Assembly: GCA_001302245.1 (NCBI GenBank)
Contig: LGYU01000016.1
Coordinates: 434,001 to 498,000, forward strand
Direction: 5' to 3'
Source of the DNA: Chitinophagaceae bacterium PMP191F
GTDB taxonomy: Bacteria; Bacteroidota; Bacteroidia; Chitinophagales; Chitinophagaceae
DNA: 64,000 nt
The notes beneath the pieces were generated by a model. The model searched no databases. It was given only the letters and a program-made list of their open reading frames with translations, and had not been told where the DNA came from. A program made the translations under genes and the position numbers. Positions 5,263 to 58,088 of this stretch are shown one piece after another (position 1 is the first letter of the stretch; each line of letters begins with the position of its first letter).

Positions 5263-5604
5263 AAAGCGTTTATCTGTCTGTTCGCCTGAGATCTCTTCTT
5301 TGCCGGTCATGTATCCTTTTCACCGCATTAAAATACGCAAAAAACACTTTTTATCATAAGAGAAACCTATAAGTTAACAATTACACTTCCGGTTTCATTA
5401 CTATATGATACAGAAATATGAATTACAGCACAATACAGGATAGTATTTTATTTATATTATCCCTTCGCAAGCAGGATAAAACAGGATGGTTATTTAAACA
5501 ACTCTTTTAGCTTTAGTATACTAACAGCAGGGTTGCTGCCCTGCCGGCAATAAAGTATATTCGGTTTCACGTCAGTTGTTCATTAACCCACAATATTGTT
5601 TGCC

Positions 5605-8307: not shown

Positions 8308-8374
8308 TGTAACGCCCGGTCAATGTAGTGAATTTGTTAACCGGTAATAATTACGGAAGATTGTAAAAACAAAA

Positions 8375-8400
8375 AGGTCCCGCCCGTTTGGGCGAGACCT
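8375..8400 (-). terminator. Strong intrinsic terminator of the FAS1 operon
   Basis: Read on the minus strand, AGGTC-CGCCC-type arms around an AAAC loop form a GC-rich stem followed by TTTTTGTTTTT. It lies 110 bases past the stop of the IPT/NHL gene and so defines the 3' end of the long minus-strand operon. Confidence 0.8.
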
Positions 8401-8509
8401 CACCAATGCAAACTGCTCAACTAAAAGTTCCGTATCAGATGCATCATTTATACTTGGCTGTATAAAAGGGAATACAGAACGGGAAAAGTTACAGTTTTAC
8501 CGGCTACGC

Positions 8510-10666
8510 TTATTTTAAAATGATCTTACGAACAGACTTGTTTCCTCTTTCTGCCACATAAATATTCCCCTCATTATCAACACACAATGCCATAATACCA
8601 TTGAAGGTAGCAGTACTTAACGATCCATCCTGCGAACCAGACACAGGTGTAAAACCTCCCTGCCAGCCTGTAATAGTAGTTACCTGTCCGTCTGCCATCA
8701 TACGCACGGCATTGTTATCAATCGTATACAACCTGTTGCTCTGTCTGTCGTACACCACACCTGTGGGCATGCCGAACAATGCTGTATTATAAGGACCGTC
8801 CCTGTATCCATAACTACTACCGGCATAGGTAGTACGAACGCCATTGACTACCTGGAATACAGCATTGTAGCTGTAATCACTGGCAAAGAATACCACCCCG
8901 TTGTTATTAATGGCAATAGGACCGGTAGGTGATTCATACCCGTTGGCCAGTTTTGTGGCATTACCAAACTGATCAAGCTTTGAAATATTGCTGTACTGCA
9001 TGCCCACATATATCACCTCATCTTTATCAAGACCAAGACCAGTGGGATAAAATCCAAGTTGTGCATAGGTAGACACATCACCGGCTGGTGTTATCTTCCG
9101 GATCCTTTTGTTATTGGCATCACAAACATAAATATTATCCTGTTTGTCAATAGCAAGTGTATTGGGATAAGAGAACCTTGCCTGTGCACCTGTACCATCC
9201 ACATAACCGGCAGCCACATCGCCGGCAAACAGGCTTACTACACCGGCGGGCGTTACCTTCATTATCTTATTACCATCTGCCACAAATACATTTCCCTGTT
9301 TATCTACCGTAATGGCCGTAGGAAAATTAAATAGGTTTTGAGTGCTTCCTCCTGCAATGGTGATCACTCCTGATTTGGTAAATACAGGACCGATCGCTTC
9401 CAGTCCGCCGCTACGCACTATTACAGCACCGGTAGAAGTACCTACCGGCACTTTTACGTTCAATTGGGTAGCAGTTGCAGATAATACGGCAGCAGGTGTA
9501 CCATTGAATAATACCACGTTGTCAGACGGTACAGTACTAAAGCCCAGACCATTGATCGTTACATCTGTACCTTCTACACCATTATCGGGCAACAGTTGTA
9601 TTACACTCAGTTGTTGTTCTTTAAAAACAGGACCATCTGTGGTCTGCGCATTTACAGTAACAACAACATTACCGGTACCTGCACCAGCCGGCACTTTCAC
9701 AGAGATCTGCTTTTCGGCTGCACTGGTTAGCACAGCCGTTTTACCATTAAAGGTGACAACTACTTCATCAGCAAATGCACTGAAGTATTCTCCTTTTATT
9801 ACTACATCCGCACCGGCAGGGCCGCTGAGCGGTGTTACCGATTTAATAACAGGACTGGGTACTACTGTAAATGTATTGCCAATGGTTTTCTGTCCATTGA
9901 TCATTACCGAAACAGGACCAGTAGCCACACCTGCCGGAGCTGTTACTACCAGTTGACTAGCGGTAGCACTCACCACGGTAGCATTTTTACCATTAAAGGC
10001 TACTGTATTGCCAGCTACCACATTACTGAAACCTTCACCATTGATGGCAACCTGTGTACCCGCGCCACCCGTAAGCGGTTTGATACTGTTGATGCGCTGA
10101 AAGGTAAAATCCGGACCCGTCACCGTTTTGCCATCTACCGTTACTGCGATCTTTCCGCTGCCCGCAGCTTCGGGCACTGCTGCTACCAGCAGGGTATCAT
10201 TCACACTGGTTACCAGTGAGGCTTTACCATTCACCGTTACCCGTGCAGGCGCATTCAGGCTACTGAAGCCTTCCCCACGGATAGAAATATTGGTTCCTGC
10301 CGGACCATTGAGCGGACTAACGTTACGCAGGCTCAGTTGCTGGTAAGTATAAGTGCCCAGGTCCAGTTTTTTATCACCCACTTTTACAGATACCACACCT
10401 GTTTTACCAGTCTCGGGCGACAGTACGATCAGCATACTGTCTCTTACATCCACTACCCTGGCCGGTGTACCGTTAAAGTCCACTTCATTATCACCAGCCT
10501 TTGCACCAAAGCCTTGCCCGCTGATGGTAACAATAGTTCCTGCATTACCACTGTTGGGCCAGAAACTTTTTATTTCAAATGCCGGTTTGCCGGAATCATT
10601 GTTGTCTTTTCTGCAGGCAATGCCCAATGCTATCAGCACTACCAGCAGGTATAGATATTTTTTCAT
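8510..10666 (-). CDS. Lipoprotein with five IPT/TIG domains and NHL propeller
   Basis: The ATG at 10666 starts an SPII leader ending L-G-I-A-C-R-K; an ATG at 10687 would only add seven polar residues. Residues ~30-435 hold five tandem IPT/TIG Ig-like repeats, each with P-x-x-G-x-x-G-T and G-x-G-F motifs (e.g. SPLNGPAGTNISIRGEGFSS). Residues ~440-718 form an NHL-type six-bladed propeller with repeated D-x-x-G-N-[IV]-[FY]-V and V-R-K-I/V-T-P motifs. Similar IPT-NHL lipoproteins accompany TonB receptors in Bacteroidota and are thought to be surface glycan- or ligand-binding proteins. It is the last gene of the operon, 29 bases after the Oar-like receptor; no catalytic residues are visible. Confidence 0.88.
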   Translation of the reverse strand: MKKYLYLLVVLIALGIACRKDNNDSGKPAFEIKSFWPNSGNAGTIVTISGQGFGAKAGDNEVDFNGTPARVVDVRDSMLIVLSPETGKTGVVSVKVGDKKLDLGTYTYQQLSLRNVSPLNGPAGTNISIRGEGFSSLNAPARVTVNGKASLVTSVNDTLLVAAVPEAAGSGKIAVTVDGKTVTGPDFTFQRINSIKPLTGGAGTQVAINGEGFSNVVAGNTVAFNGKNATVVSATASQLVVTAPAGVATGPVSVMINGQKTIGNTFTVVPSPVIKSVTPLSGPAGADVVIKGEYFSAFADEVVVTFNGKTAVLTSAAEKQISVKVPAGAGTGNVVVTVNAQTTDGPVFKEQQLSVIQLLPDNGVEGTDVTINGLGFSTVPSDNVVLFNGTPAAVLSATATQLNVKVPVGTSTGAVIVRSGGLEAIGPVFTKSGVITIAGGSTQNLFNFPTAITVDKQGNVFVADGNKIMKVTPAGVVSLFAGDVAAGYVDGTGAQARFSYPNTLAIDKQDNIYVCDANNKRIRKITPAGDVSTYAQLGFYPTGLGLDKDEVIYVGMQYSNISKLDQFGNATKLANGYESPTGPIAINNNGVVFFASDYSYNAVFQVVNGVRTTYAGSSYGYRDGPYNTALFGMPTGVVYDRQSNRLYTIDNNAVRMMADGQVTTITGWQGGFTPVSGSQDGSLSTATFNGIMALCVDNEGNIYVAERGNKSVRKIILK

Positions 10667-10695
10667 CTGATTATATTGTTGATACATGAATCGGG

Positions 10696-13600
10696 TTAAA
10701 ATGAATACCTGAGTCCCATCTGCACCTGAGCTCTTGAATTGAAAAAATCAATGGAATATGGTTTGCCCGGATTGTCAAAAGTATATACCGGGTATGGACC
10801 AGGGTTCTGTCTGGCAGGGAAAGTTGGTGTTAATCCCACGCTGGCAGTAGAGTTAAAGGTATTGGGTGAGAAATATACACGCCCCCAGTTGCTGTTGATC
10901 AGGTTGGTCAGGTTGATTACATCAATGGTAAGTGTGATAAAGTGTTTGTTGGGCAGATGGTATTCCTGCGCAATACGCAGATCGGCCTGTACATTCCAGG
11001 GCGTATGACCGGTATTGCGTTCTGTAAATGCACCACGGCGTGAACGCAGGTATTTATTACCGTCAATATAGCTGTTAAAGGCGATGGCCTGTGCAGCAGC
11101 CGTTACAGTTTGTCCTGCAGTATTGGTATAATCCTGGAAAAAACGGATGGCTTCATCAGTTGTTGGGATATATACCAGGCTAACCTGCTGCGGCAATCCC
11201 TGTACACTGTTGTTCACAATTCCATACGTAAAAGGACTTCCGGATTGCGCTGTTACAAAGAGCGTAACATTGGTGATCCAGCTTTGGTTCCATGATTTTC
11301 TGTATGCAGCATTGGCTACGATACGGTGACGGATATCAAAGTTTGACCACGCCAGCCCGGGATTGTTCGGGTTCAGTGCCTGGTTCAACTGCCAGTTACT
11401 TTCCATTGAGTTGCGGATACCGTTCGATATATCTTTTGATCCGCCATAGGTATAGGCCAGTGAAGCATTTAAACCAAAAGGATAGTTGCGGTTTACTGAT
11501 GCAGTAATATTATAACGATATCCTTTGCTGGTATTACTCAGCAGGTATGCATTGGAAAAATGCGGATCTACCATACCACTGAAAACAGGTTGTTGCTTTT
11601 CTTTATCATAACCAAAATAGCGTGGATCATCTTTGATATTCACCTGCCGGAACATCACATCTTTCATCGTTTTGGTAAAGATGCCTTCCAGCGTGAATTT
11701 GTAACCTGTAGCGTTGGTATAATCCATACCTACGCTGGTACGCCATACCTGTGGCAGTACAAAATTGTTATCAATTACATCCACCTGTGTTTTACCTGCA
11801 TTCCTGTTCTTTACATCAGCACCGTTCTGTTCTATAAAGCCAGCTATACCATTATTGCCACCACGCAGGGGATCAGAACCGGGTACAAAACTTTTGGCAT
11901 CGGCCTTCTGGTCAAATGAACCGTAGTTGATGCCATTGTTGTAATAGGCATAGGCGATCCATGCAAATGGTATACGGCCGGTAAATAAACCGGTACCACC
12001 GCGCAGTATGATACGCTGATCACCATTTACATCATAACGGAAACCCAGCCTGGGTGAGATCTGTACCTTACCCAGGTAACCGTTGTTGATGCGGTTGAGC
12101 GGCGTATAGGTATACGTAGTACCAAAAGCATTATCAGTATAGGCATTGCGGGTAAGATCGCTCAAAGCAGGCTTGGCAGGCAGCCATGTATAGTCTGCCC
12201 TAAGCCCGGGAACCAGTTTCAGTTTTTCAGAAAGCTGGATTTCATCCTGCGCATACAAACTGTGCATATTCACCTGGAAGGTTGCTTCAGGGTGTGCCAG
12301 GATGTAGTCGCGATTGTTGTTGTTGTAATTGTAGCTGCCACGTACACGATATGGCTTATTGCTGAGATAATCGTTAATACTTAAAAAATCCACACGACCG
12401 TTCCAGCTATTCACAAAACCGTAGTCAATTGAATACAACTCATTGTGTGTTCCGAACAATACGGTATGATTGCCTTTGCGCCAGGTAACATTACCTGTCA
12501 ACTCCAGCGTACGTTGTTTCATATCAAAAATGCTGGCTTCCCTGTCTGTACCGAAATAAATGGTAGTACCGGGTGTGCGGCCTGTAATCTGCACCTGTGG
12601 TAATGAAGGATCGGATGTAGGATTGCGTTTATCATGCACTACACTGTAACCGGCAATAAAGCTGGACGACCAGCGGTTACCCAATCGTGATTTCCACTCC
12701 AGCACGGTAGAATGCTGGTTGTTCACCTGCTGGTAAGCCATGCTGCTGAAACGGAAGTCCTGCTGATCACGATCCATATTGACGGCTTTGGACAGAATAG
12801 TGTTGTTTCTAACAGACAACTGGTTTCTGTCATTGATATTCCAGTCAATACGGTTAAAGAATTTCTGTGAACGCGAATAAGCAGTATAAGCACCGGCTGT
12901 TCCGGGATCGAAAGCGTTGCCATAGCGGCTGATAGTTGCATTACGGATACTCTCTGCATCGTTTACAGAAAGGATATTGGCTGTTTCTGCCTGACCTGCC
13001 ATTAACTGTGCGGGGTCTTTCCGGTCTGTAATTTCTTCGTTGGTAAAAAAGAAGAGTTTATTCTTAATGATAGGGAACCCTACCCTGAAACCAGCCTGGT
13101 AATCATAAAAATCGCTGTTCATTTTTCCCAGCGTACCGGCTTTGTCTTTACCTGTCAGTGCTGCATTGCGGCCATACCCATATACAGAACCTGTAACGGT
13201 ATTGGTACCACTGCGGGTTACAGCGTTGATGCTTCCGCCGGTAAAGTTGCCGATCTTCACATCAAACGGTGCCAGATACACTTGCATATCTTCAATAGCA
13301 TCCAGCGAAATAGCGTTGGTACGTGTACTGGAACCGGGCATACCGGAACTACCGGTAATACCGCCCAGTGAAGGACTGAAACCGATAGCGTCGTTGTTGA
13401 TAGCTCCGTCAATAGTGATATTGTTGTACCGGAAATTGGTACCGGCAAAAGAGTTGTCTTTGGTTGCCTGCGGTACCAGCTTGGTCATATCCTGTATACT
13501 GCGTGCAATAGTAGGCATACCGGCCAGTTGTGCACGGTTGATGTTCTGCCCGGCACCAAAGGTATTGGCTTTGGGACCAGCTTTTTTTGCACGCACTTCT

Positions 13601-13959
13601 ACTGCAGATAATTCAGTACCGGCATCGGCCATTACAAAATTGAACTGCAACTGGTCGCCCAGCCGGATATTTACCTGTTCCAGTTTTTGTGTTTCTCTTC
13701 CCGTCATACTTACACTGATGGTATAAGGACCACCAATACGCAGGCCGGTTAAATAATAACGTCCGTCATTACCGGTTGCCATTCCATATTTTGTACCCGA
13801 AGGTTCATGCACTGCAATAACAGAAGCACCGGCCAGCGGCTCATTTTTACTGTCTGTTACTTTACCTCCGATAGTACCGTTCGTTTCCTGCGCCACAACA
13901 GTACTGCCTGTTACGGCCAGCAATACAAACAGGGAAACTATGTATAAAATCTGTTTCAT
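10696..13959 (-). CDS. Oar-like TonB-dependent receptor
   Basis: 1087 residues: Sec leader (MKQILYIVSLFVLLAVTGST…VAQ), carboxypeptidase-regulatory-like domain at ~28-115, plug domain from ~140 with D-G-A-I-N-N-D and S-I-N-A-V-T-R-S-G-T-N, and a long beta-barrel ending in a terminal aromatic strand (QVQMGLRYSF). The plug and barrel follow the Oar/OmpA-related class, not the SusC/RagA class: there is no SusC signature and no SusD follows. It is expected in the outer membrane importing or exporting a ligand with TonB energy. It sits 13 bases after a FAS1 lipoprotein gene, in the same operon. Confidence 0.9.
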   Translation of the reverse strand: MKQILYIVSLFVLLAVTGSTVVAQETNGTIGGKVTDSKNEPLAGASVIAVHEPSGTKYGMATGNDGRYYLTGLRIGGPYTISVSMTGRETQKLEQVNIRLGDQLQFNFVMADAGTELSAVEVRAKKAGPKANTFGAGQNINRAQLAGMPTIARSIQDMTKLVPQATKDNSFAGTNFRYNNITIDGAINNDAIGFSPSLGGITGSSGMPGSSTRTNAISLDAIEDMQVYLAPFDVKIGNFTGGSINAVTRSGTNTVTGSVYGYGRNAALTGKDKAGTLGKMNSDFYDYQAGFRVGFPIIKNKLFFFTNEEITDRKDPAQLMAGQAETANILSVNDAESIRNATISRYGNAFDPGTAGAYTAYSRSQKFFNRIDWNINDRNQLSVRNNTILSKAVNMDRDQQDFRFSSMAYQQVNNQHSTVLEWKSRLGNRWSSSFIAGYSVVHDKRNPTSDPSLPQVQITGRTPGTTIYFGTDREASIFDMKQRTLELTGNVTWRKGNHTVLFGTHNELYSIDYGFVNSWNGRVDFLSINDYLSNKPYRVRGSYNYNNNNRDYILAHPEATFQVNMHSLYAQDEIQLSEKLKLVPGLRADYTWLPAKPALSDLTRNAYTDNAFGTTYTYTPLNRINNGYLGKVQISPRLGFRYDVNGDQRIILRGGTGLFTGRIPFAWIAYAYYNNGINYGSFDQKADAKSFVPGSDPLRGGNNGIAGFIEQNGADVKNRNAGKTQVDVIDNNFVLPQVWRTSVGMDYTNATGYKFTLEGIFTKTMKDVMFRQVNIKDDPRYFGYDKEKQQPVFSGMVDPHFSNAYLLSNTSKGYRYNITASVNRNYPFGLNASLAYTYGGSKDISNGIRNSMESNWQLNQALNPNNPGLAWSNFDIRHRIVANAAYRKSWNQSWITNVTLFVTAQSGSPFTYGIVNNSVQGLPQQVSLVYIPTTDEAIRFFQDYTNTAGQTVTAAAQAIAFNSYIDGNKYLRSRRGAFTERNTGHTPWNVQADLRIAQEYHLPNKHFITLTIDVINLTNLINSNWGRVYFSPNTFNSTASVGLTPTFPARQNPGPYPVYTFDNPGKPYSIDFFNSRAQVQMGLRYSF

Positions 13960-13972
13960 TGATGTTTGTTTT

Positions 13973-14953
13973 CTACTGATTTTCTTTTAATACCTGGTCT
14001 GTGATGTGTACCACACCGTTGCCAGCCATCAGGTTTGCTTTTACAATATTCGATGCGGATGTATTACCAATACCTTTTACTGTGATACCGGTATACAGTG
14101 CACCCGTTTTCAGTAACGTCACAGAGATATTATCGCCATTCAGCATAGCCTGTTCTGTTTTATCAGAACTGCCGGTGGTAAGAATATAATCGTATATAAA
14201 CCTGCGGCCTTCAAACAAATTATAGTTCAGCAGTTCGGTCAGTTTTGCCGGATCAGTTTTGGCAATACTGTCTGTGGAGGCAAATCCCAGCGTACGGAAA
14301 GCATTGTTGTTGGGTGCAAATACTGTATAGGCTTTATCGGAAGCCAGCATCGCTTTCATACCTGCCTGTTGTAACGCTACATTCAGGAAGGTAAGTGATG
14401 TATCCGCCGCCAGTGCATCAGATAGTTTATCGTGCACCATTGGCTGCAGTACCTGGTCCATCACCTGTATCAGCCCGTTACTGGCCTTCAGGTTGTAGGT
14501 AAGTATTTTTGTACCATTGATGGTAAGAACCGTATCGCCATTCTTTAACCAGCGGGTTACATAGATCTTCTTACCGGTAATGGCTGTGATCTCCTGGTTG
14601 AACCTGAAAGGCAGTTTATTCAGCTCCCACGTACCGCTTACAATATGATAAGGCACCAGGTTGTTCAGTACTACAGCGCTTTCAGTCAGTACCCGGTCAG
14701 CTGTAGTGTACCCGTTCTTAATAAAAGCATTGTTATCCGGCAGCAGTACCGTGTATGGACCTTCATCGGCCAGCATCTTTCTGTAAGCTGTACGTTGCAG
14801 CGCCGTATTGAAAAAGGAGAAATTGAACTTATTATCGTCAATAATATAGTTAAGGCGGTTTGATATTTCATTGCCGGTAGCAGACTGGTCATGATCCTTT
14901 TTACAGGCAGCCAGCAACAACACCATTAAACCGCTGTATATTGTTTTTTTCAT
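13973..14953 (-). CDS. Lipoprotein with two FAS1 (fasciclin) domains
   Basis: Start chosen at ATG 14953 (or 14959), giving a short SPII leader M-K-K-T-I-Y-S-G-L-M-V-L-L-L-A-A-C; longer frames overlap the upstream gene. Two FAS1 domains follow, residues ~30-165 and ~166-326. The second is canonical, with Y-T-V-F-A-P-N-N-N-A-F and N-G-V-V-H-I-T-D-Q-V-L; the first is more divergent (YTVLLPDNNAF). FAS1 domains mediate adhesion and ligand binding. It is the last of three tandem FAS1 genes between the two TonB receptors of the operon. Confidence 0.88.
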   Translation of the reverse strand: MKKTIYSGLMVLLLAACKKDHDQSATGNEISNRLNYIIDDNKFNFSFFNTALQRTAYRKMLADEGPYTVLLPDNNAFIKNGYTTADRVLTESAVVLNNLVPYHIVSGTWELNKLPFRFNQEITAITGKKIYVTRWLKNGDTVLTINGTKILTYNLKASNGLIQVMDQVLQPMVHDKLSDALAADTSLTFLNVALQQAGMKAMLASDKAYTVFAPNNNAFRTLGFASTDSIAKTDPAKLTELLNYNLFEGRRFIYDYILTTGSSDKTEQAMLNGDNISVTLLKTGALYTGITVKGIGNTSASNIVKANLMAGNGVVHITDQVLKENQ

Positions 14954-14972
14954 TTGCATTTTTTTAAAGGTT

Positions 14973-16169
14973 CTAGGGCATAAACAGGTCATCTACCGCA
15001 TGTATAACGCCATTGGTAACACGAACATTCTTTTCAGTCAGGCCAACAGGTGCAACTGATGAACCCAGGCGTTTTATCATTGGCTCATCATTGCGGCTGC
15101 TGAAAGCCAGGTTCAGCTTTACAGGCGGACTTGACCACATTTGTCCTGCCATGAGTGTTATACCCGTTAGTATGCTGCCATTATCTACCAGGTCGTTCGA
15201 AAAAAAGACAGGCCCTGTTCCTCCCTCTCCGATATACAATCTGTACATCAGCAACCCGTGCGGCAACAGCAGCGAATCCAGAGATGTTACCGGTTCCTGG
15301 TAATAATAATTTTCATCAACCTCAGGGTCTGCTAATGGCCAGACTCTGGTACAGTAGTCCCTGACATCATCTACCGTAAACATCCCATGCTTATTAAAAG
15401 CAGCGTTGGTGGGAGCAAACAGGGTTGCCTGCGTACTGCCCGGAGCCCCGATCAGCAATTGTAATGAAGACACAGACAGCCAATTTGACTGGTAGAGGCT
15501 GTCATTGATACGCATTGCTTCTGTAAAAAGGAAAAAGCGCGGATCATCGGTAAGGTATTGCCACATCGTTTTTTCCGGACGTGCTATCATCCTGGTTACT
15601 GGATAGATCATTCCATTGATGGCTTCTTTTCCATTGCCCCATTTATCTACTCCTGTACCATTTACGTACAGGCTGTCGTTGTGTTTACCGGCAAACAGGA
15701 AAGTCACATATCTTTTACCATTGGGTGTATAATTCGGCAGGTCTGTGCGTTCGGCCAATGTGGGTAAAGACCGGTTTCCTTTCACAGCTTCAAGCCCCAC
15801 AGGCAAATAACGGCCAGGTACTATATAACCGGATAATAAAGTATCCAGCTTCTGGGCGCTGGTAGTATTGATCTTGTCAAGCGTCCAGCCCGCATCCTGA
15901 AATGCCTTATCAGTAGGAATAAAAAAAGTGTAGTAAGCTGATCCGTATTTTTTCACCAGGGCCTCCATACCTGATCGTTTCCATGCCTGTTGAAAATAAG
16001 TATAAGATGACTGATCGATCAGTTGCTGCCAGGTTTTATCTGCACCGCTATAAGGCACAGGTTCCCCTACAGGTTCGGGCATTATATCCTCTTTTCTGCA
16101 GGCAAAAAGCACTGTTGCAATCAATAATGCAGTCATCATCAGTTGTACCGTATAAGTATTCCGGTTCAT
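14973..16169 (-). CDS. Lipoprotein with two FAS1 domains
   Basis: 398 residues with lipobox leader ending A-T-V-L-F-A-C-R-K. FAS1 domain 1 spans roughly residues 45-210 (YTFFIPTDKAFQDAG), domain 2 roughly 215-398 (ATLFAPTNAAFNKHG … NGVIHAVDDL). A long insertion in the second domain separates the two halves. It is surface or periplasmic lipid-anchored, and 14 bases separate it from the preceding FAS1 gene. The three paralogs are too divergent to be recent duplicates. Confidence 0.87.
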   Translation of the reverse strand: MNRNTYTVQLMMTALLIATVLFACRKEDIMPEPVGEPVPYSGADKTWQQLIDQSSYTYFQQAWKRSGMEALVKKYGSAYYTFFIPTDKAFQDAGWTLDKINTTSAQKLDTLLSGYIVPGRYLPVGLEAVKGNRSLPTLAERTDLPNYTPNGKRYVTFLFAGKHNDSLYVNGTGVDKWGNGKEAINGMIYPVTRMIARPEKTMWQYLTDDPRFFLFTEAMRINDSLYQSNWLSVSSLQLLIGAPGSTQATLFAPTNAAFNKHGMFTVDDVRDYCTRVWPLADPEVDENYYYQEPVTSLDSLLLPHGLLMYRLYIGEGGTGPVFFSNDLVDNGSILTGITLMAGQMWSSPPVKLNLAFSSRNDEPMIKRLGSSVAPVGLTEKNVRVTNGVIHAVDDLFMP

Positions 16170-16183
16170 GTGTTTATAATTTT

Positions 16184-17278
16184 TTACTTCCGCATTACTG
16201 CCGGGTTAAGAATCAGGTTATCGATCACATGTATTATTCCATTGCTGGCTACACGATCAGCACTGAGCAAATAATTTTTGTAATAGGAAACAGTAGAAGG
16301 TCCGCGTGTATTGTTTACCCATTGCCCTTCACCCTTTAATGAGTTTAACCATATCACGGCCACATCCTTTTTATAGAAGTAATCATACTGGTAGTTGGGA
16401 ATAATACTGGTACTATCCATCACAATAGATTCTGCCGGTCTGATGCCACTACTTCCGCTAATAGCATATGCATCGGTAGAAAAAACGTGTACTGATCGCA
16501 GCAGCAGCGGGTAAATACCAAATGCCATTGGTTTGAACCGGTCTGTCTGTATTCTGCCTGCACTATCGGCAGTGATGCCATAACTGAGGAATGCTGTGTT
16601 GGAAGGGGCAAAAATGGTCAGCGGATCTTTTATTTTCAGATCATCCCAGTATCCGAACCTTTTCATCACCGCACTGAAAATGGTAAGATTGGTATCGGCA
16701 GCAATATAATCCTGTACAGTTCCACGAGTGTAATTCAGCGGGCGGCGCATGATATGTATTACACCATTTGTCAGTGCAATATTCCTTTTTTCATTTGCCA
16801 TGATCATAGTACCGTTCACGAATACAAAATGGTTATCATTCCCTATACCAAATCCTTCTTTACCTATAGTTACATATACTTCAGCACCAGCCAGGGTATT
16901 ATATTTGTTATCAAGCTGCTGTGGAAAATCGGATACAAAATACCGGTTGCGTATAATATGATACTTCAGTAAAAAGCGAAGACTGTCTGTATTCATTTTA
17001 TCGAAATCCTTTGCACTGGTAATACCTACTTCATTGAAAGCTGTATTATCAGGTAAAAAGGCTGTAAATAAACCCGGCTGTTTCAGGCTGTCAAGAAGAT
17101 CAGTTTTCTTCAACGCTGCCAGCAGCAGGCTGAGATCATAATTATTTTCAATAAACTCACCCAGTGTACGCGGAACAGATGTTCTGTCCACCGGAGCTGT
17201 TAAATTATCTTTTTTACAACCTGCTGTCAGCAAGGCCAGCGAAAGCAGTACAAAAGATATGCGTGAAAAGTATGACAT
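16184..17278 (-). CDS. Lipoprotein with two FAS1 domains
   Basis: 364 residues, leader ending L-A-L-L-T-A-G-C-K-K. FAS1 domain 1 at ~35-190 (FTAFLPDNTAFNEVG, NGVIHIMRRPL), domain 2 at ~190-360 (LTIFAPSNTAFLSYG, NGIIHVIDNL). All key FAS1 H1/H2 motifs are recognisable. First of the three tandem FAS1 genes; spacing to its neighbours is 27 and 14 bases, indicating one transcript. Confidence 0.88.
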   Translation of the reverse strand: MSYFSRISFVLLSLALLTAGCKKDNLTAPVDRTSVPRTLGEFIENNYDLSLLLAALKKTDLLDSLKQPGLFTAFLPDNTAFNEVGITSAKDFDKMNTDSLRFLLKYHIIRNRYFVSDFPQQLDNKYNTLAGAEVYVTIGKEGFGIGNDNHFVFVNGTMIMANEKRNIALTNGVIHIMRRPLNYTRGTVQDYIAADTNLTIFSAVMKRFGYWDDLKIKDPLTIFAPSNTAFLSYGITADSAGRIQTDRFKPMAFGIYPLLLRSVHVFSTDAYAISGSSGIRPAESIVMDSTSIIPNYQYDYFYKKDVAVIWLNSLKGEGQWVNNTRGPSTVSYYKNYLLSADRVASNGIIHVIDNLILNPAVMRK

Positions 17279-17305
17279 GGATCTGTATAATTAGGTTAAT
17301 AATTT

Positions 17306-18475
17306 TTAGTAGATGGGCGGAGCATATTTACGCTGAATAGTGGTAAGAAAAAATCTATCGTTGATAAATTCCAGTGTATTTACTGTTGCAAACGACTGGG
17401 GATTGTTTCTCCCAGAGTGGATACTGACAATAAGCCCGGTACGCAGATCTGCCTTTATACCATAAGGAAGACTAGTGTTACCAACCACGTATCCATAATC
17501 TCCCATAGCAATAGCCGAATATTGTCCGGGACTGGAGAAGGTCATGCCTTCCGGTGAAATGCCCGGAGTGCAGAACCTGAACACCTGGGCCATGTTTCCG
17601 GTAAATATCCTGGAGGCACTGGTATCTGCAAACAATGGAAAATTGTAATAAGGATTAACATGCGGCTCCAGCGATCGGACTACATTCCCCATAGGTTCAT
17701 TATTAAAACCGGGAATCGGCACCAGTGCTGTATTCTTCAGCCGGGTGAGTGAATAATATATGTTCATATTATCCTCCATCTTCAGCGTGCCAAGTGCATT
17801 ACCATCTTTGATCTTTGATGTAGTAGCAAAATATCCTTTGGAGCTGAGGTTATAAAAGTTGATGTATACCAGCGAATCGCTCAATGGTTGTTTTACAAAT
17901 GTTTCATTGCGCAGGTAAAGACCAGTCTGTTTGGTATCATAATCCTTTTCCAGCACATGCATGGTATACACTTCGCGCGTCTGCAATTCGATAGTGGTGT
18001 CTATCAGTGAAATACCACGCAGGTTTTTGGCAAGACTGAAATACGGCGTATTGTTATAAGGGCGGGTACGGAAAATAATTCGGTGTTTTCCGGAAGGTAC
18101 CTGTGCCCAGCTGGACAGATCATAACCGTTCAGTATGGGAGCTGCCAGTACTTTTAATGAGCCGGGATATTCTTTCTGCCACAATGTGGTATTCACAGCA
18201 TCGGGATAAGGCCTGGCCCAGGTATCCCTTTTATCCAGGAAGTCTCCTACAATGGCTGCGCTTTCGGGCACGCCATCTTTGTCCAGGACAGGATCGATCA
18301 GCATGGTCAGAAATGGCTGAGGTGCATCTTTGTTGCCCAGTGTAACATTATAGCTGAGACAATTGAACACCCGCAGATAAGCCGGGTTGTCAATGCCTGC
18401 AAACTCTGTTTTACGGCAACCTGCCATTAACCACAAAGCAAAAAATGATAGTATTATCAGTGATCTCTTTCTCAT
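17306..18475 (-). CDS. Surface lipoprotein of unknown family
   Basis: 389 residues with SPII leader ending F-A-L-W-L-M-A-G-C-R-K. The mature protein begins with L-R-V-F-N-C-L-S-Y and has a beta-rich pattern with motifs like V-Y-I-N-F-Y-N-L-S, similar to the way DUF4397 proteins report 'lives on the surface' beta-sandwiches, but I do not firmly recognise a domain. There are no enzyme motifs. It is 9 bases downstream of the DUF4397-like gene and 27 upstream of the first FAS1 gene, so it likely belongs to the same surface complex. Confidence 0.75.
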   Translation of the reverse strand: MRKRSLIILSFFALWLMAGCRKTEFAGIDNPAYLRVFNCLSYNVTLGNKDAPQPFLTMLIDPVLDKDGVPESAAIVGDFLDKRDTWARPYPDAVNTTLWQKEYPGSLKVLAAPILNGYDLSSWAQVPSGKHRIIFRTRPYNNTPYFSLAKNLRGISLIDTTIELQTREVYTMHVLEKDYDTKQTGLYLRNETFVKQPLSDSLVYINFYNLSSKGYFATTSKIKDGNALGTLKMEDNMNIYYSLTRLKNTALVPIPGFNNEPMGNVVRSLEPHVNPYYNFPLFADTSASRIFTGNMAQVFRFCTPGISPEGMTFSSPGQYSAIAMGDYGYVVGNTSLPYGIKADLRTGLIVSIHSGRNNPQSFATVNTLEFINDRFFLTTIQRKYAPPIY

Positions 18476-18484
18476 TGCAGTATT

Positions 18485-20197
18485 TTATTTGTTGTGTTTT
18501 ACAATGATCATACGGGCATTGCCTGCTGTTTTACCTACCAGTGCCACAGTATAAAATCCAGGCTCGCGGTTAGGCAACGGAGTGGTTTTATACAGATCTG
18601 TACGGGCAATGAAATCAGTGCTTTTCAATGGCTGTACCTGTTGCTGCCAGTTGCCCGGTAATACGCCGGGAGTTGACTGATAAACCAGTATCTGTCCGGG
18701 TATATTCAGTAGCAACTGTGCATAAGGGTCGATGGTCACCGGCTGTCCCAGCAGAATATGCTGTGTTGCTTTGGTAGCCGAACTGCCCGACATAGGCACA
18801 AAAGGCTGGCCGTTGTTGGTAGTAAACGTTATCTCGTCCAGCTCTGCACACAGGTTTAGAAAACGTATCCAGTTGGGGGTTGTTTCTTTGTACATGCTGT
18901 AAGAGCCTTCTTCACCGGCATTGCCGTTGTAGTATTTTGAACTGAGATTATTGGCGGCAAGTGCTATTGCGGCTTTACCATCTTTGGCAGTATACAACCA
19001 CGCAGTGATATTATCACCGGGTTGCAATGCTGTGGTGGTTTGCGCCAGTAGTGCTCCATTTTTATCTGTTGCCTTTATAGTATAGTTGCCGGTTATATAT
19101 AGTTCGTAAGCGGTCTGCCGGGTAAACGCCAGTGACTCACCCAATGGTTTTTCATTTACCAGCCACTGTACACCTGTACCTTGTATGGTATTTACGGCCT
19201 GTAACCTGGCATACGTGGTATTAACCGGTTCGCTGATATCAGTAATGATGCGGAATGTGTTCCCTTCAGTATTGACAGTTTCGCCGTTGGGGTTGCCTGT
19301 TGGTATCACACAGTCGTAGTTCATAGATACGGCAATGGTGTATATACCACCCGGCTGAAAGGTTTTAAATGGTGCATAAGTAAGCCATGTATCGGATCTC
19401 CCACCAACACCAGGTGAGCCATAAAAATCCATAAGCGTTCCCGTGATGGTATTTAAAGGAAACGAACTGTTACCCTGTACTTCACGACCGTCTGCATCCA
19501 TTACCTTAAACTGGTAAGTACCATAAGGAACTTCGATATAATCGGACCATGTACCGGGAGCCACATTCTGTACACCGGTAACAGGAGTGCCATCTGCCCA
19601 GGCCAGCGACATAGGCCCTTTCCTGTACACGCCCGCCACAGAAAATGCATCGGGGGGAGATGAAAGATTGACCAGTCGTATTTTAAAATTTGCAGGATTG
19701 GAAGGTGGTGAAACAGAACGTGGCACAGCTATCAGCGAATCCAGGTACGTTGCCCTGTTGGGTCTATAGCGCACATAATAGTAATCATGCGGATCATTGA
19801 AATCGTCCTTCGCGCGGAACCTGCGCGATTCGGGCAGACCATTTCTTTTGCCCAGTGAATTGAATACAATGCTATCTATCCAGCCATTTGCATTAACAAA
19901 CTGCAGGGGAATAGCATAGGTCAATCCCATACGTCCGGTTTCCGGGAAATAAATGGTGCCTCTTGTCTGATCTGCTCCGAAATAGCCATCGATATCCGGA
20001 GGTATAAAGTTGGTAAGCTTTAGTCCGTTAATGGTCAGTTGCGGTGCACCGGCCATATTCACGATCCGTGCGCTGGAAGCTGTCAGCGGCTCAGTGTTCG
20101 GGCGGTTATCGTATTCAAAATCCTGTTTCTTTTTGCAGGCACAAATACACAGTACAGCCAATAGCCATAAACCTGTATATGCAATTTTCATTTTCAT
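18485..20197 (-). CDS. DUF4397-like surface lipoprotein
   Basis: 570 residues. Leader ends L-A-V-L-C-I-C-A-C-K-K (start at ATG 20197, or 20191 two codons later). Near residues 165-260 the sequence F-K-I-R-L-V-N-L-S-S-P-P-D-A-F-S-V followed by P-Y-G-T-Y-Q-F-K-V is typical of DUF4397 beta-sandwich repeats; a second similar unit appears near 330-420 (YARLQAVNTIQGTGVQWLVN, AYELYITGNYTI). It is probably anchored at the outer membrane as partner of the STN-TonB receptor encoded 12 bases upstream, in the place where a SusD would be in a classical locus. Ligand unknown. Confidence 0.75.
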   Translation of the reverse strand: MKMKIAYTGLWLLAVLCICACKKKQDFEYDNRPNTEPLTASSARIVNMAGAPQLTINGLKLTNFIPPDIDGYFGADQTRGTIYFPETGRMGLTYAIPLQFVNANGWIDSIVFNSLGKRNGLPESRRFRAKDDFNDPHDYYYVRYRPNRATYLDSLIAVPRSVSPPSNPANFKIRLVNLSSPPDAFSVAGVYRKGPMSLAWADGTPVTGVQNVAPGTWSDYIEVPYGTYQFKVMDADGREVQGNSSFPLNTITGTLMDFYGSPGVGGRSDTWLTYAPFKTFQPGGIYTIAVSMNYDCVIPTGNPNGETVNTEGNTFRIITDISEPVNTTYARLQAVNTIQGTGVQWLVNEKPLGESLAFTRQTAYELYITGNYTIKATDKNGALLAQTTTALQPGDNITAWLYTAKDGKAAIALAANNLSSKYYNGNAGEEGSYSMYKETTPNWIRFLNLCAELDEITFTTNNGQPFVPMSGSSATKATQHILLGQPVTIDPYAQLLLNIPGQILVYQSTPGVLPGNWQQQVQPLKSTDFIARTDLYKTTPLPNREPGFYTVALVGKTAGNARMIIVKHNK

Positions 20198-20209
20198 CGT
20201 TTGTTACTT

Positions 20210-23200
20210 TTACAATGTGTATGTAAGACCCAGCATCAGTTCTGCACCACGGTTAAAACTTCTGCGCACATATTTTCTACCATAGAATTTACCGCCTGTA
20301 CCGGGGTTGGCATATACTTCTTCAATAGGTTTGTCCAGTATGTTTTTTGCAAAACCTTTCAGTTGTAGTCTTTTGAACAACTGTTGGGTAAATACCAGGT
20401 CCAGTACAGGGTTGGGTCTTGAGTACAGATCGGGTGTACCATCCAGGTTGATCTGTATCAGCCGCTCTCCTACCATGTTGAAGGAAGTGGTGATATCTGT
20501 TCCGGTTTTTTTATTGTTATAGTTCAGATAAATGTTAATGGAGTAAGGCGCCTGTTCAAACAAAGGGCTGTTGGATGGCGCACGGCGGTCAAGCGCGCGT
20601 GATGTTTCCAGACGTTCTGGTGTTTTTTTGATATCACTCTGTGCCAGCAACAGGTTCGATCCCAGGAAGAACTTCTGCAATGGTGTCCATAGCGTACCCA
20701 GGTTCTTTACAGCTTCCAGCTCTATACCATATACACGGCCTTTGTTGGGATCGTTCTGAAACTCAATAGCAGGAAACTCAGGAAACCTGGCATCAAGCCC
20801 TTTTGAATTCTGTTTAAATACTTTGGTAAGCTGGTTGTCGATCTCTTTGTAGAACAATGAAGCTGATAACACTTCACCCGATGCAGGGAACCATTCCCAA
20901 CGAAAATCATAGTTGGTCGTACGCTGATTTTTCAGTTTCGGATTACCCACCATCAATGCAAACTGGAATGGATCAAAATCAAATACATTGGTCAGTTCTC
21001 TCAATTCTGGTCGTGCCAGTGAATTGTTGTATCCCAGCCTGAAGTTCATGCTCTTATTCAGGGTATAGGTAAGGTTGGCAGAATAGAAAGGCGTATAATC
21101 TGTTTTGTAAAGAGAGTTGGGTTCGGTATATACCAGGTTCACTTTATTACCACTGGCATCGGTAGTAGTGATCGAAGCATCGAGGAAAACGTTGAAAGTA
21201 TCTACTGCGGCCTGTATATCGGTCATTTCAAAACGCACACCACCTGTAAGACGCAGTGCTTCCGTCAAACGCAGATCCAGCATGCCGTAAAAAGCGCGTG
21301 TTTCGTAATACCCTTTATAGTTATTGGGCGATTTCTGCGTATTGTATAAAAAACCTCCCAGTCGAGGAGCACCTTCTTCGTTGTAGCTGGATTGCGGGCG
21401 GATGCCGATTCTGTCGTACCCTACCAGTCTGTCCAGATTGCCATTTACCTCGTATAAAGGAGTAGACTTGCTCACTGAATAATTAGAACCGGGCAGGTAC
21501 AACACGTTTTCTGAGAACGTTCTTTTGCGGTGCAGGTAGTTCACCCCTGTTTTAAACTCCTGTTTCTGTCCCAGCAGCTTAAAAGGGATACTCAGGTCTG
21601 CCTTATAATTGTAATTATCTTCTTTCAGTTTTCGAAAACGGCGACCGTTGGGATCAGCCTGTATAATGCCATAAGGGCCATAACCATTTACATATCCCGA
21701 CACCAGTGAATACAAATGCTCTGTTGCTATGTAAGTATTTTCGGAATTCGGTACTTCAGATGGTCCAGCATATACGGCGCCGCCATTGGGTTTGTAATCG
21801 GCCAGGTTTGCAAAACGATAATCCGGATCATCCTGGCTCGAAGAAGAGGTTGCCAGGTTATAACTTAACCGCGGAGTATACTCTCCCTTCAGCAGTTTGT
21901 GCTCGCCCTGCAGGTTGAATGTATTCAGTGTACGATAGCTCTGACGCAACGAGTAGATGACGTTGGAAACCCTGCCAGGAATACCGGTGTACTCATACGC
22001 ACCATACAGGTTACTAGTTTTTGTTTCTGTACCCCTGCTACCCAGGTATTGCACACTGATCTCGTGCTGCGGATTAAATTTATAGGTTAAGCCACCCAGA
22101 AAGCCGTAGTTCAGTGTCTGTGTACCGGTATTCTCCCTGTAGTTGAGATATTTTCCAAGATTGATATTATTGGGAGTAATATAGTTAGGGATAATGCGGG
22201 GACTGTATACGTTTGTATTACCCGTCAGCACACCCTGGTAAACGCTGTACTGTGTAAGTTTACCATCATTAATATCAGTAGTTCTGCTATAGTAATTGGC
22301 ACCCAGTATTAAACCTACCTGGTGCTTTTTAAAAACAGTATAATTATTGCCATAGGTAATGGAATAGTTCTGGTTGAGCGGGGCAGTTTTATAACGCGTG
22401 GTGAGTACGGGATCAAACTGGTGCATGATCCTGTTCACACGACTCACTTCGTTCAGCATGGCGGGATCATTACGGCTTGCTGCAATTTTTTGTTGTATAT
22501 CTTTTAATCCACCTGGATATTGTGCAGCGAGCTGCTGAAATTCAGCGCTCAGTCCTTTATTTTTCACCTTCTGTCCCAGGAAACCCATATCACTGTTGTA
22601 AAAACTGTTCACCTGGTTACCGGTACGTGTGTTCATACCGGTTTGTACACTCACAATAAAAGTTTCTTTGGCAGGTATTGATTTTGTTTTCAGCTCCACA
22701 ATACCTGCCGCCGCATCAGCGGGTTTATCAGGCGAAATACTTTTGTAAATGGTAATATTATCAAGCAGGCTGGCCGGTATCAGGTCCAGCGGAATGGCGC
22801 TTCTGTCGGGATCTGAAGATGCGAGGCGGATACCATTCAACTGACCGATCACACTTCTGTCGCCCAGACCACGGATGGCAACATACTTGTCGTCTGTAAT
22901 AGTAACACCCGATACACGCTGCAATGCCTGTGTAGTGGTAATACTGGCTGTACGTTCTATCTGCTGGGCAGAAATGGCATCAGAAATAGTAGCTGCATTT
23001 TTACGTTCTGTCAGCACCGCCGCTTCTGTATTTAAACGACGTTTTACAGATACGGTTACTTCACTCAGTGAAGTTTCACCGGGCAATAGTGTAATAACAA
23101 TATCTGCGCTACTGTCACGCACAGCTACTTCCCGTTTGTCATAACCGGTATAGCTGAACACCAGTAGGGTATTTCTGCCCGGCACTTTGATGGTGAACAC

Positions 23201-23710
23201 ACCATCCTGATCGGTTACGGTACCGGTTTGTGAGCCTTTGATACTTACCGATACACCGGCCATTGGCTTGCTTTTCTCATCGCTGATCTTTCCTTTTACA
23301 CGCCAGGGCTGACCACCGGTTTCAACAGCAGGTGCATGTTCTTTTTTCCTGATCACGATCTTACCATTCACCTCCTGCCAGTCGAATCCGGTTGCTGATA
23401 ACAGGGTGTTCAATACTGACGATACTGATTTGCCGGCAAAAGTGACTGTGTACTTTTTGGTAACTGACTTCAGCTCGCTGGGCTGATAGTACACATTGAA
23501 GCCCGAAACTGTTTCCAGTTTTTTTAGACAACTGATAATGTCTTCGTCCTTGAATTGCACCGTAATAATCTTGCCAGCCGGCTGTTGTGCATTGGCAACA
23601 GCAAACTGTAAAACCAGCACGACCATAGTGAGCAGTAACCTAATACAATACTGCCACGATCTTTTTTGATTGTGATTTAACCCAAACAGTAGTTTTTGTT
23701 GCATTTGCAT
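20210..23710 (-). CDS. TonB-dependent receptor with STN signalling domain
   Basis: 1166 residues. After a long signal peptide (cleavage near VANAQQ) comes an STN/secretin-N domain (~48-120, I-I-T-V-Q-F-K-D-E-D-I-I-S-C-L-K-K-L) that in FecA-type transducers contacts the FecR anti-sigma factor. Then a carboxypeptidase-like domain (~138-215), a plug with Y-V-A-I-R-G-L-G-D-R and S-S-D-P-D-R, and a barrel ending G-L-T-Y-T-L. The RGLGDR…DPDR plug belongs to a non-SusC receptor subclass. It lies downstream of sigma and fecR genes, so it should both import a ligand and report it to the regulator. Confidence 0.92.
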   Translation of the reverse strand: MQMQQKLLFGLNHNQKRSWQYCIRLLLTMVVLVLQFAVANAQQPAGKIITVQFKDEDIISCLKKLETVSGFNVYYQPSELKSVTKKYTVTFAGKSVSSVLNTLLSATGFDWQEVNGKIVIRKKEHAPAVETGGQPWRVKGKISDEKSKPMAGVSVSIKGSQTGTVTDQDGVFTIKVPGRNTLLVFSYTGYDKREVAVRDSSADIVITLLPGETSLSEVTVSVKRRLNTEAAVLTERKNAATISDAISAQQIERTASITTTQALQRVSGVTITDDKYVAIRGLGDRSVIGQLNGIRLASSDPDRSAIPLDLIPASLLDNITIYKSISPDKPADAAAGIVELKTKSIPAKETFIVSVQTGMNTRTGNQVNSFYNSDMGFLGQKVKNKGLSAEFQQLAAQYPGGLKDIQQKIAASRNDPAMLNEVSRVNRIMHQFDPVLTTRYKTAPLNQNYSITYGNNYTVFKKHQVGLILGANYYSRTTDINDGKLTQYSVYQGVLTGNTNVYSPRIIPNYITPNNINLGKYLNYRENTGTQTLNYGFLGGLTYKFNPQHEISVQYLGSRGTETKTSNLYGAYEYTGIPGRVSNVIYSLRQSYRTLNTFNLQGEHKLLKGEYTPRLSYNLATSSSSQDDPDYRFANLADYKPNGGAVYAGPSEVPNSENTYIATEHLYSLVSGYVNGYGPYGIIQADPNGRRFRKLKEDNYNYKADLSIPFKLLGQKQEFKTGVNYLHRKRTFSENVLYLPGSNYSVSKSTPLYEVNGNLDRLVGYDRIGIRPQSSYNEEGAPRLGGFLYNTQKSPNNYKGYYETRAFYGMLDLRLTEALRLTGGVRFEMTDIQAAVDTFNVFLDASITTTDASGNKVNLVYTEPNSLYKTDYTPFYSANLTYTLNKSMNFRLGYNNSLARPELRELTNVFDFDPFQFALMVGNPKLKNQRTTNYDFRWEWFPASGEVLSASLFYKEIDNQLTKVFKQNSKGLDARFPEFPAIEFQNDPNKGRVYGIELEAVKNLGTLWTPLQKFFLGSNLLLAQSDIKKTPERLETSRALDRRAPSNSPLFEQAPYSINIYLNYNNKKTGTDITTSFNMVGERLIQINLDGTPDLYSRPNPVLDLVFTQQLFKRLQLKGFAKNILDKPIEEVYANPGTGGKFYGRKYVRRSFNRGAELMLGLTYTL

Positions 23711-23815
23711 TTTCGTTTATGAATGAGAAAACGATCCCGTTTCCAGTTGTTTACTGAAAAAAAATGACTTGTTTACCGGTAACAGTTACGATACCGGCGT
23801 ACTATCCGTTATGTA

Positions 23816-24805
23816 TCAGGATGCTCTTTTTATTACTACAGTGTTTCCATTTGTTACAGACCATGAAAGGCCCGACGATATACATATCACATCCAACACA
23901 TCTTTCCAGCTTTCCTTACGGGTAAAACTTCCGCTGAAAGTGGCCTGAGTAGCTGTAGCTGTGCGAATATTTTCTATATTGATACCATATTCTGCCGCTA
24001 CGGTCTGCAATACAATTGCAAGAGGTGTTTCATTAAATACCAGGTTATTATTTGTCCAGTTGGTAATATTTACAGCATCAATGTTATTGGCAATGGTTAC
24101 CAGTCCGTCTTTCCGACGATAGGTCACCTGCTGATCGGGTGTCAGCAATGCCACCGGTTTATCTGCCACACTTACCTGTACCTTGCCTGTTACTACTGTT
24201 ACAACAGCATCTGCAGTTGCTGCATTGTTCACTTCAAACGAAGTACCGAGTACTTTCACCTGTATATCATCACTTTCTACTACAAAAGGTTTTGCAGGAT
24301 TGTGCGTGATACTGAAAAAGGCTTTTCCTTTTAATGCAGCATATCGTTTTGTGCCACGGTATTTTTCAGGATAGCTGATACTGCTGTTGGCAGCCAGTGT
24401 TACAATACTGCTGTCGGGCAACAGCAGTTTTTTAATTTCATACGGACCGGTAGCTTTTGTTTGCAGCGTCACCGGATCTATCATATCCAGTATACGGTAC
24501 CTGAACAGGTATCCTGCCACCAGGAACACTGCCAGTCCGGCCCATAAGGCCGCATACCGCAACATACGTTTACTGAAACGTACTACACCGGAATGCTGTT
24601 CATCAGATAATACTGCAGATACTTCAGCAGCAGGCCTCACACGTTCCCACAGCCTGTTTTTGATAAATGCTTTATCCTGCTCAGAAAGCTCATCATGGTG
24701 TTTTTCTGCCAGAACGATCCATGCTTCCAGCATTTTCTGTTCACGTGCAGTAGCCTGTCCGTCAAGATATTTCTGTAAAAGACGCTTCAGTTGTTCTTTG
24801 TCCAT
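23816..24805 (-). CDS. FecR-family anti-sigma factor
   Basis: 329 residues: a cytoplasmic N-terminal region (~1-85, YLDGQATAREQKMLEAWI), one transmembrane helix at ~87-105 (ALWAGLAVFLVAGYLF), then the periplasmic FecR domain with L-P-D-S-S-I-V-T-L-A-A-N-S and F-F-S-I-T-H-N-P-A-K-P-F-V-V motifs, ending in a DUF4974/STN-like C-terminal domain. It should hold the upstream ECF sigma factor and receive the signal from the STN domain of the receptor encoded 105 bases downstream. Confidence 0.92.
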   Translation of the reverse strand: MDKEQLKRLLQKYLDGQATAREQKMLEAWIVLAEKHHDELSEQDKAFIKNRLWERVRPAAEVSAVLSDEQHSGVVRFSKRMLRYAALWAGLAVFLVAGYLFRYRILDMIDPVTLQTKATGPYEIKKLLLPDSSIVTLAANSSISYPEKYRGTKRYAALKGKAFFSITHNPAKPFVVESDDIQVKVLGTSFEVNNAATADAVVTVVTGKVQVSVADKPVALLTPDQQVTYRRKDGLVTIANNIDAVNITNWTNNNLVFNETPLAIVLQTVAAEYGINIENIRTATATQATFSGSFTRKESWKDVLDVICISSGLSWSVTNGNTVVIKRAS

Positions 24806-24842
24806 TTCGTTGAAATTGTTTCCTTTTTGTTGTAAAAAGAAA

Positions 24843-24866
24843 AAGGCGCTCTATATAAAGCGCCTT
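24843..24866 (-). terminator. Intrinsic terminator between sigma and fecR
   Basis: Perfect 8-base arms AAGGCGCT / AGCGCCTT with an 8-base loop; on the minus strand the stem is followed by TTTTTCTTTTT. It lies 30 bases after the sigma factor stop and 38 before the fecR start, so it must reduce read-through into the rest of the operon. Confidence 0.75.
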
Positions 24867-24895
24867 AAAACTTCTTTTGGTACTATGCGGTTGTA

Positions 24896-25477
24896 TTATC
24901 GAATTGTTAACTCATAAAACAATGTTATCAGCAGTGCTTCCGACATGGGTTTGCGCAGCCTGGCAATGGCACTGCTCAGTTGGTTTTTAACCGTTTGTTC
25001 AGACAGTTCCAGCAATACCGCAATTTCCTGTATGGCCAGTCCCTGCTGGCGGCTTAAACGGAAAATTTCCTGCATACGGCCGGGCAACCTGCCGATCTCT
25101 TCTTCCAGCAATTTGTCCAGCTCATCCACACCCATTTTATCCAGTATATTATTAAAGATGGGGAGCACACTTTCGTTGACAGTCGTAATGTCGTCTGTAT
25201 TATCCAGCATTTTTTTCAGTGCGGCAATGATCTCGTACGAAACAGCTTTAAAAAGATAATGCTGAACAGAGCTAATATTTCTTACGGCGCGCTGTTCCCA
25301 TATTTTCATAAAGATATGCTGCACTACATCTTCTGCCTCCTGTCGTGATTTCAGCCGCCGCCAGGCAAACAGGTACAGTTTTTCCCAATAACGCTCAAAC
25401 AGTTCTCTGTAAGCCTCCTGATCATCCTGCCTGATGCAATTAAACAACTCTGCGTCAGTTAGTTTTATCGTTTGCAT
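24896..25477 (-). CDS. ECF RNA polymerase sigma factor (FecI-like)
   Basis: 193 residues from ATG 25477 (an in-frame ATG at 25519 is less likely). Region 2 is F-N-C-I-R-Q-D-D-Q-E-A-Y-R-E-L-F-E-R-Y-W with the -7/-10-contacting R-R-L-K-S-R-Q-E-A-E-D-V-V-Q-H-I-F segment; region 4 carries the HTH G-L-A-I-Q-E-I-A-V-L-L-E-L-S-E-Q-T-V-K-N-Q-L. It is the expected activator of the FecR/STN receptor operon below it. Confidence 0.92.
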   Translation of the reverse strand: MQTIKLTDAELFNCIRQDDQEAYRELFERYWEKLYLFAWRRLKSRQEAEDVVQHIFMKIWEQRAVRNISSVQHYLFKAVSYEIIAALKKMLDNTDDITTVNESVLPIFNNILDKMGVDELDKLLEEEIGRLPGRMQEIFRLSRQQGLAIQEIAVLLELSEQTVKNQLSSAIARLRKPMSEALLITLFYELTIR

Positions 25478-45209: not shown

Positions 45210-45314
45210 GAGATGTTTTTTCCGTGAAATGTCAATCGTGAGACGTGAGTTGCCAGTCCCGGATTATTCAATAATATTGATTAGTAAAATAATCGCTATT
45301 CCATTTTTAAATCA

Positions 45315-46382: not shown

Positions 46383-46439
46383 AATGATCTTTTTCAGATG
46401 GCAAATGACTAATACAAATCCTGTAGTTACCGGGATGTT

Positions 46440-47855: not shown

Positions 47856-47864
47856 ATTAACACT

Positions 47865-48004
47865 GATTACACGGATTTAAAATACAGATTACACGGATTG
47901 AAGAACAAAGATTATGCAGATAAAGAACATGGATTGTTCCGATCACAGAACATTATCATTCCAACTATCTAAGATCAGCATCTGCACAATCCATGTTCTT
48001 TATC
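47865..48004. repeat. Complex intergenic repeat with 19-bp inverted repeat
   Basis: Two direct copies of GATTACACGGATT (47865-47877, 47887-47899, 22-base period) followed by a perfect 19-base inverted repeat (47919-47937 with 47986-48004; arm GATAAAGAACATGGATTGT). It lies inside the PUL operon between SusD and the agarase-like gene. Confidence 0.75.
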
Positions 48005-48020
48005 CCTGAAATCCGCGATA

Positions 48021-49682: not shown

Positions 49683-49744
49683 TGTTCATATTTTGGTTTG
49701 CCCGGCAATCATGTATATGCCACATGACTGACTGCAATCGTTTT

Positions 49745-52780: not shown

Positions 52781-52819
52781 TTCTTTTGTTTTGCTGTTTG
52801 TAATTCCTGCCGGATTGTA

Positions 52820-58067: not shown

Positions 58068-58088
58068 ATATTTGTCAATGTTTATCCG

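Follow-up and report, generated by a model that had tools for sequence, protein, structure and literature searches.

A ten-gene block on the minus strand (25477..8510) of the window, the whole 64,000-nucleotide stretch of DNA analysed here, most likely encodes an undescribed cell-surface machine for nutrient uptake. Two TonB-dependent receptors and six lipoproteins are specified behind a sigma factor and FecR gene, and about 100 soil Bacteroidota loci preserve this gene order.

Composition of the block

The genes run sigma–FecR–STN receptor–DUF4397–LipoX–FAS1a–FAS1b–FAS1c–Oar–IPT/NHL:

24896..25477, minus strand: ECF sigma factor of the Sig70_bacteroi1 type (Sigma70_r2/r4 above the Pfam cut-off)
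23816..24805, minus strand: FecR anti-sigma factor with FecR_C domain (PF04773 and PF16344 above cut-off)
20210..23710, minus strand: STN-type TonB-dependent receptor, TIGR01782-like (plug and barrel above cut-off)
18485..20197, minus strand: multi-domain β-sandwich lipoprotein with DUF4397 (PF14344, 40 bits, two stretches)
17306..18475, minus strand: LipoX, an orphan lipoprotein modelled as tandem Ig-like β-sandwiches; marker of the system
16184..17278, minus strand: FAS1a lipoprotein, two FAS1 domains (PF02469, E 2.6e-30)
14973..16169, minus strand: FAS1b lipoprotein, two FAS1 domains, the second diverged (PF02469 on the N half)
13973..14992, minus strand: FAS1c lipoprotein, two FAS1 domains (PF02469, E 8.4e-39)
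10696..13959, minus strand: Oar-like TonB-dependent receptor (PF25183, 152 bits)
8510..10687, minus strand: propeller-type lipoprotein with five IPT/TIG domains and NHL repeats (PF01833 in five stretches, PF01436)

Pfam and NCBIfam matches, together with profile–profile comparisons, bear out the ten gene identities proposed in an initial annotation made from sequence. The sigma factor scores 121 bits against TIGR02985 (cut-off 126.4) and adjoins a FecR protein with a FecR domain, a FecIRA-type feature. The first receptor is built from STN, CarboxypepD_reg-like, plug and barrel regions. Its STN domain lies below the Pfam cut-off in the window copy (20.5 bits against 28.4) and in locus L038, is above it in L034 (48.4 bits) and is undetected by Pfam in L044 and L050, L044 still having an aligned N-terminal region. 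In the Oar-like receptor, PF13620 (CarboxypepD_reg) and PF25183 (Oar-type barrel) are above cut-off; a plug-like region and a TonB-box-like segment are conserved, as judged by eye.

Both FAS1 domains of FAS1a and FAS1c are found by Pfam, as is the first of FAS1b. Profile–profile comparison (hhalign) matches the remaining half of that protein to the other FAS1 halves at 97–99% probability, which confirms the six FAS1 domains claimed for the block. All six lipoproteins carry a lipobox. The unit holds neither an inner-membrane transporter nor a gene for an unlipidated cargo protein. Close packing of the genes was also described correctly as far as the intergenic spacing of 8–105 bases goes, but FAS1b and FAS1c overlap by 20 bases as annotated.

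The same gene order recurs across genomes

Using LipoX as the marker for locating cassettes, we found it in 14 of 299 sampled genomes of the family (the window genome included), belonging to 7 of 104 genera. A genome has up to three copies in this sample; four matches are listed for genome G104, but two of them are pieces of one gene. Conserved order had been suggested as something to look for in Chitinophagaceae, and it is present in 20 loci, drawn from 13 further genomes of this family, with STN receptor identities down to about 50%. A scan using one genome per species yielded 141 relatives, from which 80 named loci were kept, overlapping the 20-locus family set; they come from Filimonas, Pseudobacter, Pseudoflavitalea, Chitinophaga, Pedobacter, Mucilaginibacter, Sphingobacterium, Parapedobacter and Desertivirga. 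The exact ten-gene string occurs in order in 58 of these 80. Contig ends, an extra sigma or FecR gene, duplicated or split receptor genes and an exchange of Oar with IPT/NHL (L117, L122 and L130) account for the rest. Chance or a local oddity is ruled out by an order that recurs in about 100 loci, and conservation beyond the window genome, the lack of which the initial annotation had named as a refutation, is decisively shown.

IPT/NHL is absent from L045, L047–L050 and L132 and is therefore not essential to the unit; the core consists of the seven other structural genes. Full-length DUF4397 partners are confined to LipoX cassettes (21 of 21 full-length matches in 298 genomes), and neither protein was seen without the other in the family sample. 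Two diverged cassettes have a fourth FAS1 gene before Oar (13255-14271 in L049 and 5814-6758 in L050), so FAS1 gene number can change. In L128 (Chitinophaga sedimenti) a stop codon lies within the LipoX match and the STN receptor is split, reflecting either sequencing errors or a decaying cassette.

Sampling 395 genomes across the class turned up a single further clear match. The system is thus limited to a few lineages and is patchy inside them.

The cassette diverges as a unit

Genomes can carry two to four diverged copies of the cassette, with STN receptors that are 53–76% identical within a genome. Across pairwise identities among 90 distinct cassettes, all structural parts track the STN receptor (Spearman 0.79–0.85; 0.62 for FecR). 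Up to 33 cassettes from multi-copy genomes were compared, and for every component the closest counterpart of each lies in a different genome, the pattern expected if the unit diversified by function. Flanking genes are common to close relatives only, among the loci compared. Taken together, the co-divergence, the lack of same-genome nearest relatives and the unshared flanks mean that the cassette behaves as a self-contained module present in parallel versions. Co-divergence is evidence that the parts are inherited together, not that they touch.

The two receptors are the most conserved parts (median identities 63% and 67%), and FAS1b is the fastest-diverging structural component (median pairwise identity 30%). 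The highest partial rank correlation of divergence is that between Oar and the STN receptor (0.42; bootstrap 0.31–0.51), which we treat as weak, like the other partial correlations, and which may be inflated because long, conserved proteins give less noisy distances. Within the window genome, the closest paralogue of the STN receptor is 29% identical and that of Oar is a lone gene (G000:C34) at 46%.

Terminators and a candidate promoter element

Three features of the DNA bear on transcription:

8374..8401, minus strand: strong intrinsic terminator at the block end (12-pair stem with 8 GC, U-tail; fold z -3.9)
24843..24866, minus strand: terminator- or attenuator-like hairpin between sigma and FecR (10-pair stem, U-tail; fold z -6.1)
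24879..24911, minus strand: candidate sigma-dependent promoter region GTTAACAATTCGATAATACAACCGCATAGTACC, overlapping the end of the sigma gene (GTTAAYA enrichment)

Of 84 loci, 42 have a terminator after the final gene. The block had been described as one operon ending in one terminator; the strong end terminator stands, but a second hairpin separates sigma from FecR. That hairpin is kept only in the closest relatives (L031, L032 and L033), and where present it suggests that sigma may form a separate or attenuated transcript, in the window copy as in these three. From the STN receptor to IPT/NHL, the seven gaps have medians of 4–21 bases over the cassettes compared, with no terminator within them in any cassette examined.

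The word GTTAAYA, sometimes occurring as a spaced pair, lies in the 150-base stretch ahead of FecR in 24 of 84 loci (2.5 in shuffles) and in the 250-base stretch ahead of sigma in 19 of 71 (3.5 in shuffles), counts that take in related loci and are not independent. We regard it as a candidate sigma-dependent promoter element.

Modelled folds and export-like signals of the lipoproteins

LipoX has no match in Pfam or NCBIfam and is conserved across a 55-row alignment. Single-chain AlphaFold models of LipoX (pLDDT 87) and the DUF4397 protein (pLDDT 89.5) are mostly β, folded as tandem Ig-like modules. The best PDB fold matches for both are extracellular domains of PepT1/PepT2, with low TM-scores; LipoX also shows weak similarity to Bacteroidales fimbrial proteins, again with low TM-scores. 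The fold search with these two models returned neither an enzyme fold nor a hint of a ligand, and searching by sequence found no known structure for LipoX or for either receptor barrel. LipoX as a diverged FAS1 or DUF4397 protein was considered and dropped, there being no hhalign support.

In 93–99% of detected lipoboxes, K, R, H or Q stands at +3 and an acidic residue follows between +4 and +7, a pattern similar to C-X-K-(D/E)2-X, which was established as a surface-export signal in Capnocytophaga (PMC5080379). The strict form C-X-K-(D/E)2 is present in about half of the FAS1c proteins and in few or none of the other lipoproteins. These export-like signals agree with the surface location proposed for the lipoproteins at the outset.

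Comparison with known systems

Sigma/FecR regulation is found in many SusCD systems, and SusCD copies, like those of the block, diversify by paralogy. SusCD/PUL utilisomes also pair a TonB receptor with surface lipoproteins, including Ig-like surface-binding proteins (PMC7618045), a layout resembled by the TonB receptors and putative surface lipoproteins of the block; the block differs in having two unlike receptors and an obligatory FAS1 trio. It fails the defining features of SusCD/PUL systems that were tested: the SusC-type model TIGR04056 gives 76.6 bits against a cut-off of 368, over the N-terminal part only; none of the ten proteins has a SusD family match, the LipoX and DUF4397 models being all-β; and there is no carbohydrate-active enzyme in the block. 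The absence of SusD and of a hydrolase had been noted correctly from sequence.

In BtuBG and XusAB (PMC10404256, PMC13142918) a SusD-less TonB receptor works with surface lipoproteins and no enzyme, as is proposed for the block. Each of these has one receptor and one principal lid, whereas the block has two receptors, five or six lipoproteins and sigma/FecR, and its propeller protein is dispensable. Oar of Myxococcus xanthus (PMC6434023) is an Oar-like TonB-dependent transporter of the same type as the second receptor; there it is needed for protein secretion, whereas Oar of the block is tied to the STN receptor and lipoproteins and has no evident cargo gene. FecI/FecR/FecA signalling combines a sigma factor and FecR, both matched here, with a receptor that begins with an STN domain, of which the window copy gives a match below cut-off; it controls iron-citrate uptake genes, where the version here would govern a multi-lipoprotein surface block.

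All component types are known except LipoX. As far as we found, the novelty lies in the combination being fixed, in the pairing of two receptors and in the lack of SusD and enzymes. The open-access literature, to which the search was confined, yielded no description of this gene set, in line with the earlier remark that no system with the exact set was known.

Bacteroidota commonly carry FAS1, DUF4397 and Oar-like proteins, most of which, to our knowledge, have no known role there. A nearly invariant, multi-copy, enzyme-free cassette gives these orphan families one testable shared context, and it would add a layout with two receptors to the SusCD, BtuBG and XusAB forms of lipoprotein-assisted TonB transport. 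Cultured carriers for testing are available in Chitinophaga, Pedobacter and Sphingobacterium.

A model for uptake and its alternatives

We consider it probable, with moderate confidence, that the block encodes a SusD-less, self-contained outer-membrane uptake machine, a counterpart of the SusCD and BtuBG systems. An STN receptor with bound ligand signals through FecR to its ECF sigma factor. By analogy with these families, the STN receptor of the block would both sense its ligand and import it through TonB; its STN domain would signal to FecR, which would release the sigma factor, and the released sigma would raise transcription of the block, making the system self-inducing. On the surface, the Ig-like (DUF4397 and LipoX), FAS1 and IPT/NHL lipoproteins may capture the ligand or cap the barrels, and the assembly may include the Oar-like receptor as a further TonB-driven gate; the initial annotation had proposed a capture or adhesion complex that feeds the STN receptor, with Oar as second port. 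Because the unit encodes neither an enzyme nor an inner-membrane transporter, the ligand is probably prepared elsewhere and probably arrives already small enough, as an oligomer, glycopeptide or chelate. Paralogous copies would probably serve different ligands. The gene set, its order and conservation, the co-divergence and the export-like lipoprotein signals are observed; import, along with the physical complex and the ligand class, is what we infer from the gene content and from precedent: in SusCD utilisomes, BtuBG and XusAB, Bacteroidota TonB receptors work with ligand-binding or capping surface lipoproteins (PMC7618045, PMC10404256, PMC13142918), and BtuBG (PMC10404256) and XusAB (PMC13142918) are precedents for such uptake in SusD-less form. 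Counting against uptake, the STN domain falls below the Pfam cut-off in the window copy and escapes Pfam in L044 and L050, few or no lipoproteins other than FAS1c carry the strict export signal, and there is no obvious reason for a pure uptake system to have two different receptors along with three FAS1 proteins. Tentatively, and with the odds against it, the two different TonB barrels and the FAS1 and Ig-like lipoproteins could form one complex of an undescribed machine class, one barrel sensing or importing and the other importing or exporting, with parallel versions in each cell alongside or in place of SusCD.

The same parts might instead attach the cell to a surface or a neighbour, with FAS1, Ig-like and IPT domains forming an adhesion or matrix-binding complex and the receptors serving mainly as sensors that switch the adhesins on. 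The six lipoproteins are indeed non-enzymatic binding proteins, LipoX has its weak, low-scoring likeness to fimbrial proteins, and the FAS1 protein Fdp of Rhodobacter sphaeroides acts in adherence (PMC7561615). Adhesins, however, have no need of TonB-driven barrels, and it is two full TonB-dependent receptors that sit in the core as its most conserved parts, while the IPT/NHL protein is dispensable; we judge adhesion unlikely. Surface export or display is less likely again: the Oar-like receptor would export or place the lipoproteins or a secreted protein, the STN receptor being the sensor. PopC secretion in Myxococcus requires Oar (PMC6434023), the Oar–STN correlation is the highest of its kind and the unit lacks an inner-membrane importer, but Oar-type barrels also occur as lone genes, as at G000:C34, no unlipidated cargo gene is present and protein length and conservation may inflate the correlation.

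There is also a slim chance that the system pirates micronutrients or siderophores in the manner of Xus and Btu, the IPT/NHL propeller acting as the lid. It would account for a SusD-less receptor with a propeller lipoprotein and no enzymes, BtuG being a β-propeller lid (PMC10404256) and XusB a lipoprotein that hands iron-siderophores to XusA (PMC13142918). A propeller protein missing from several cassettes, however, cannot be an obligatory lid, and no flanking gene recurs beyond close relatives.

Neighbouring genes

Reading a substrate for the uptake machine from adjacent genes was abandoned, the flanks not being conserved. An α-L-rhamnosidase of GH78 type (window 5596-8307, plus strand) converges on the block end. 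Other loci do not have it as a recurrent flanking gene, so it is probably unrelated to the block, and, lying also on the opposite strand, it was set aside as a substrate hint. Elsewhere in the window genome, L051 (G000:C9:1-20000) and L052 (G000:C13:208000-227900) each have large multi-FAS1 lipoproteins beside two SusC/SusD-like pairs, L052 with a GH88-family protein and L051 with a possible pectate-lyase-like protein, judged by eye and lacking a Pfam match; in this genome, then, ordinary SusCD systems have FAS1 lipoproteins as partners too. Further along the window, a tightly packed run of genes at 41111-58166 (minus strand) includes a TonB-receptor-like protein at 54603-58166.
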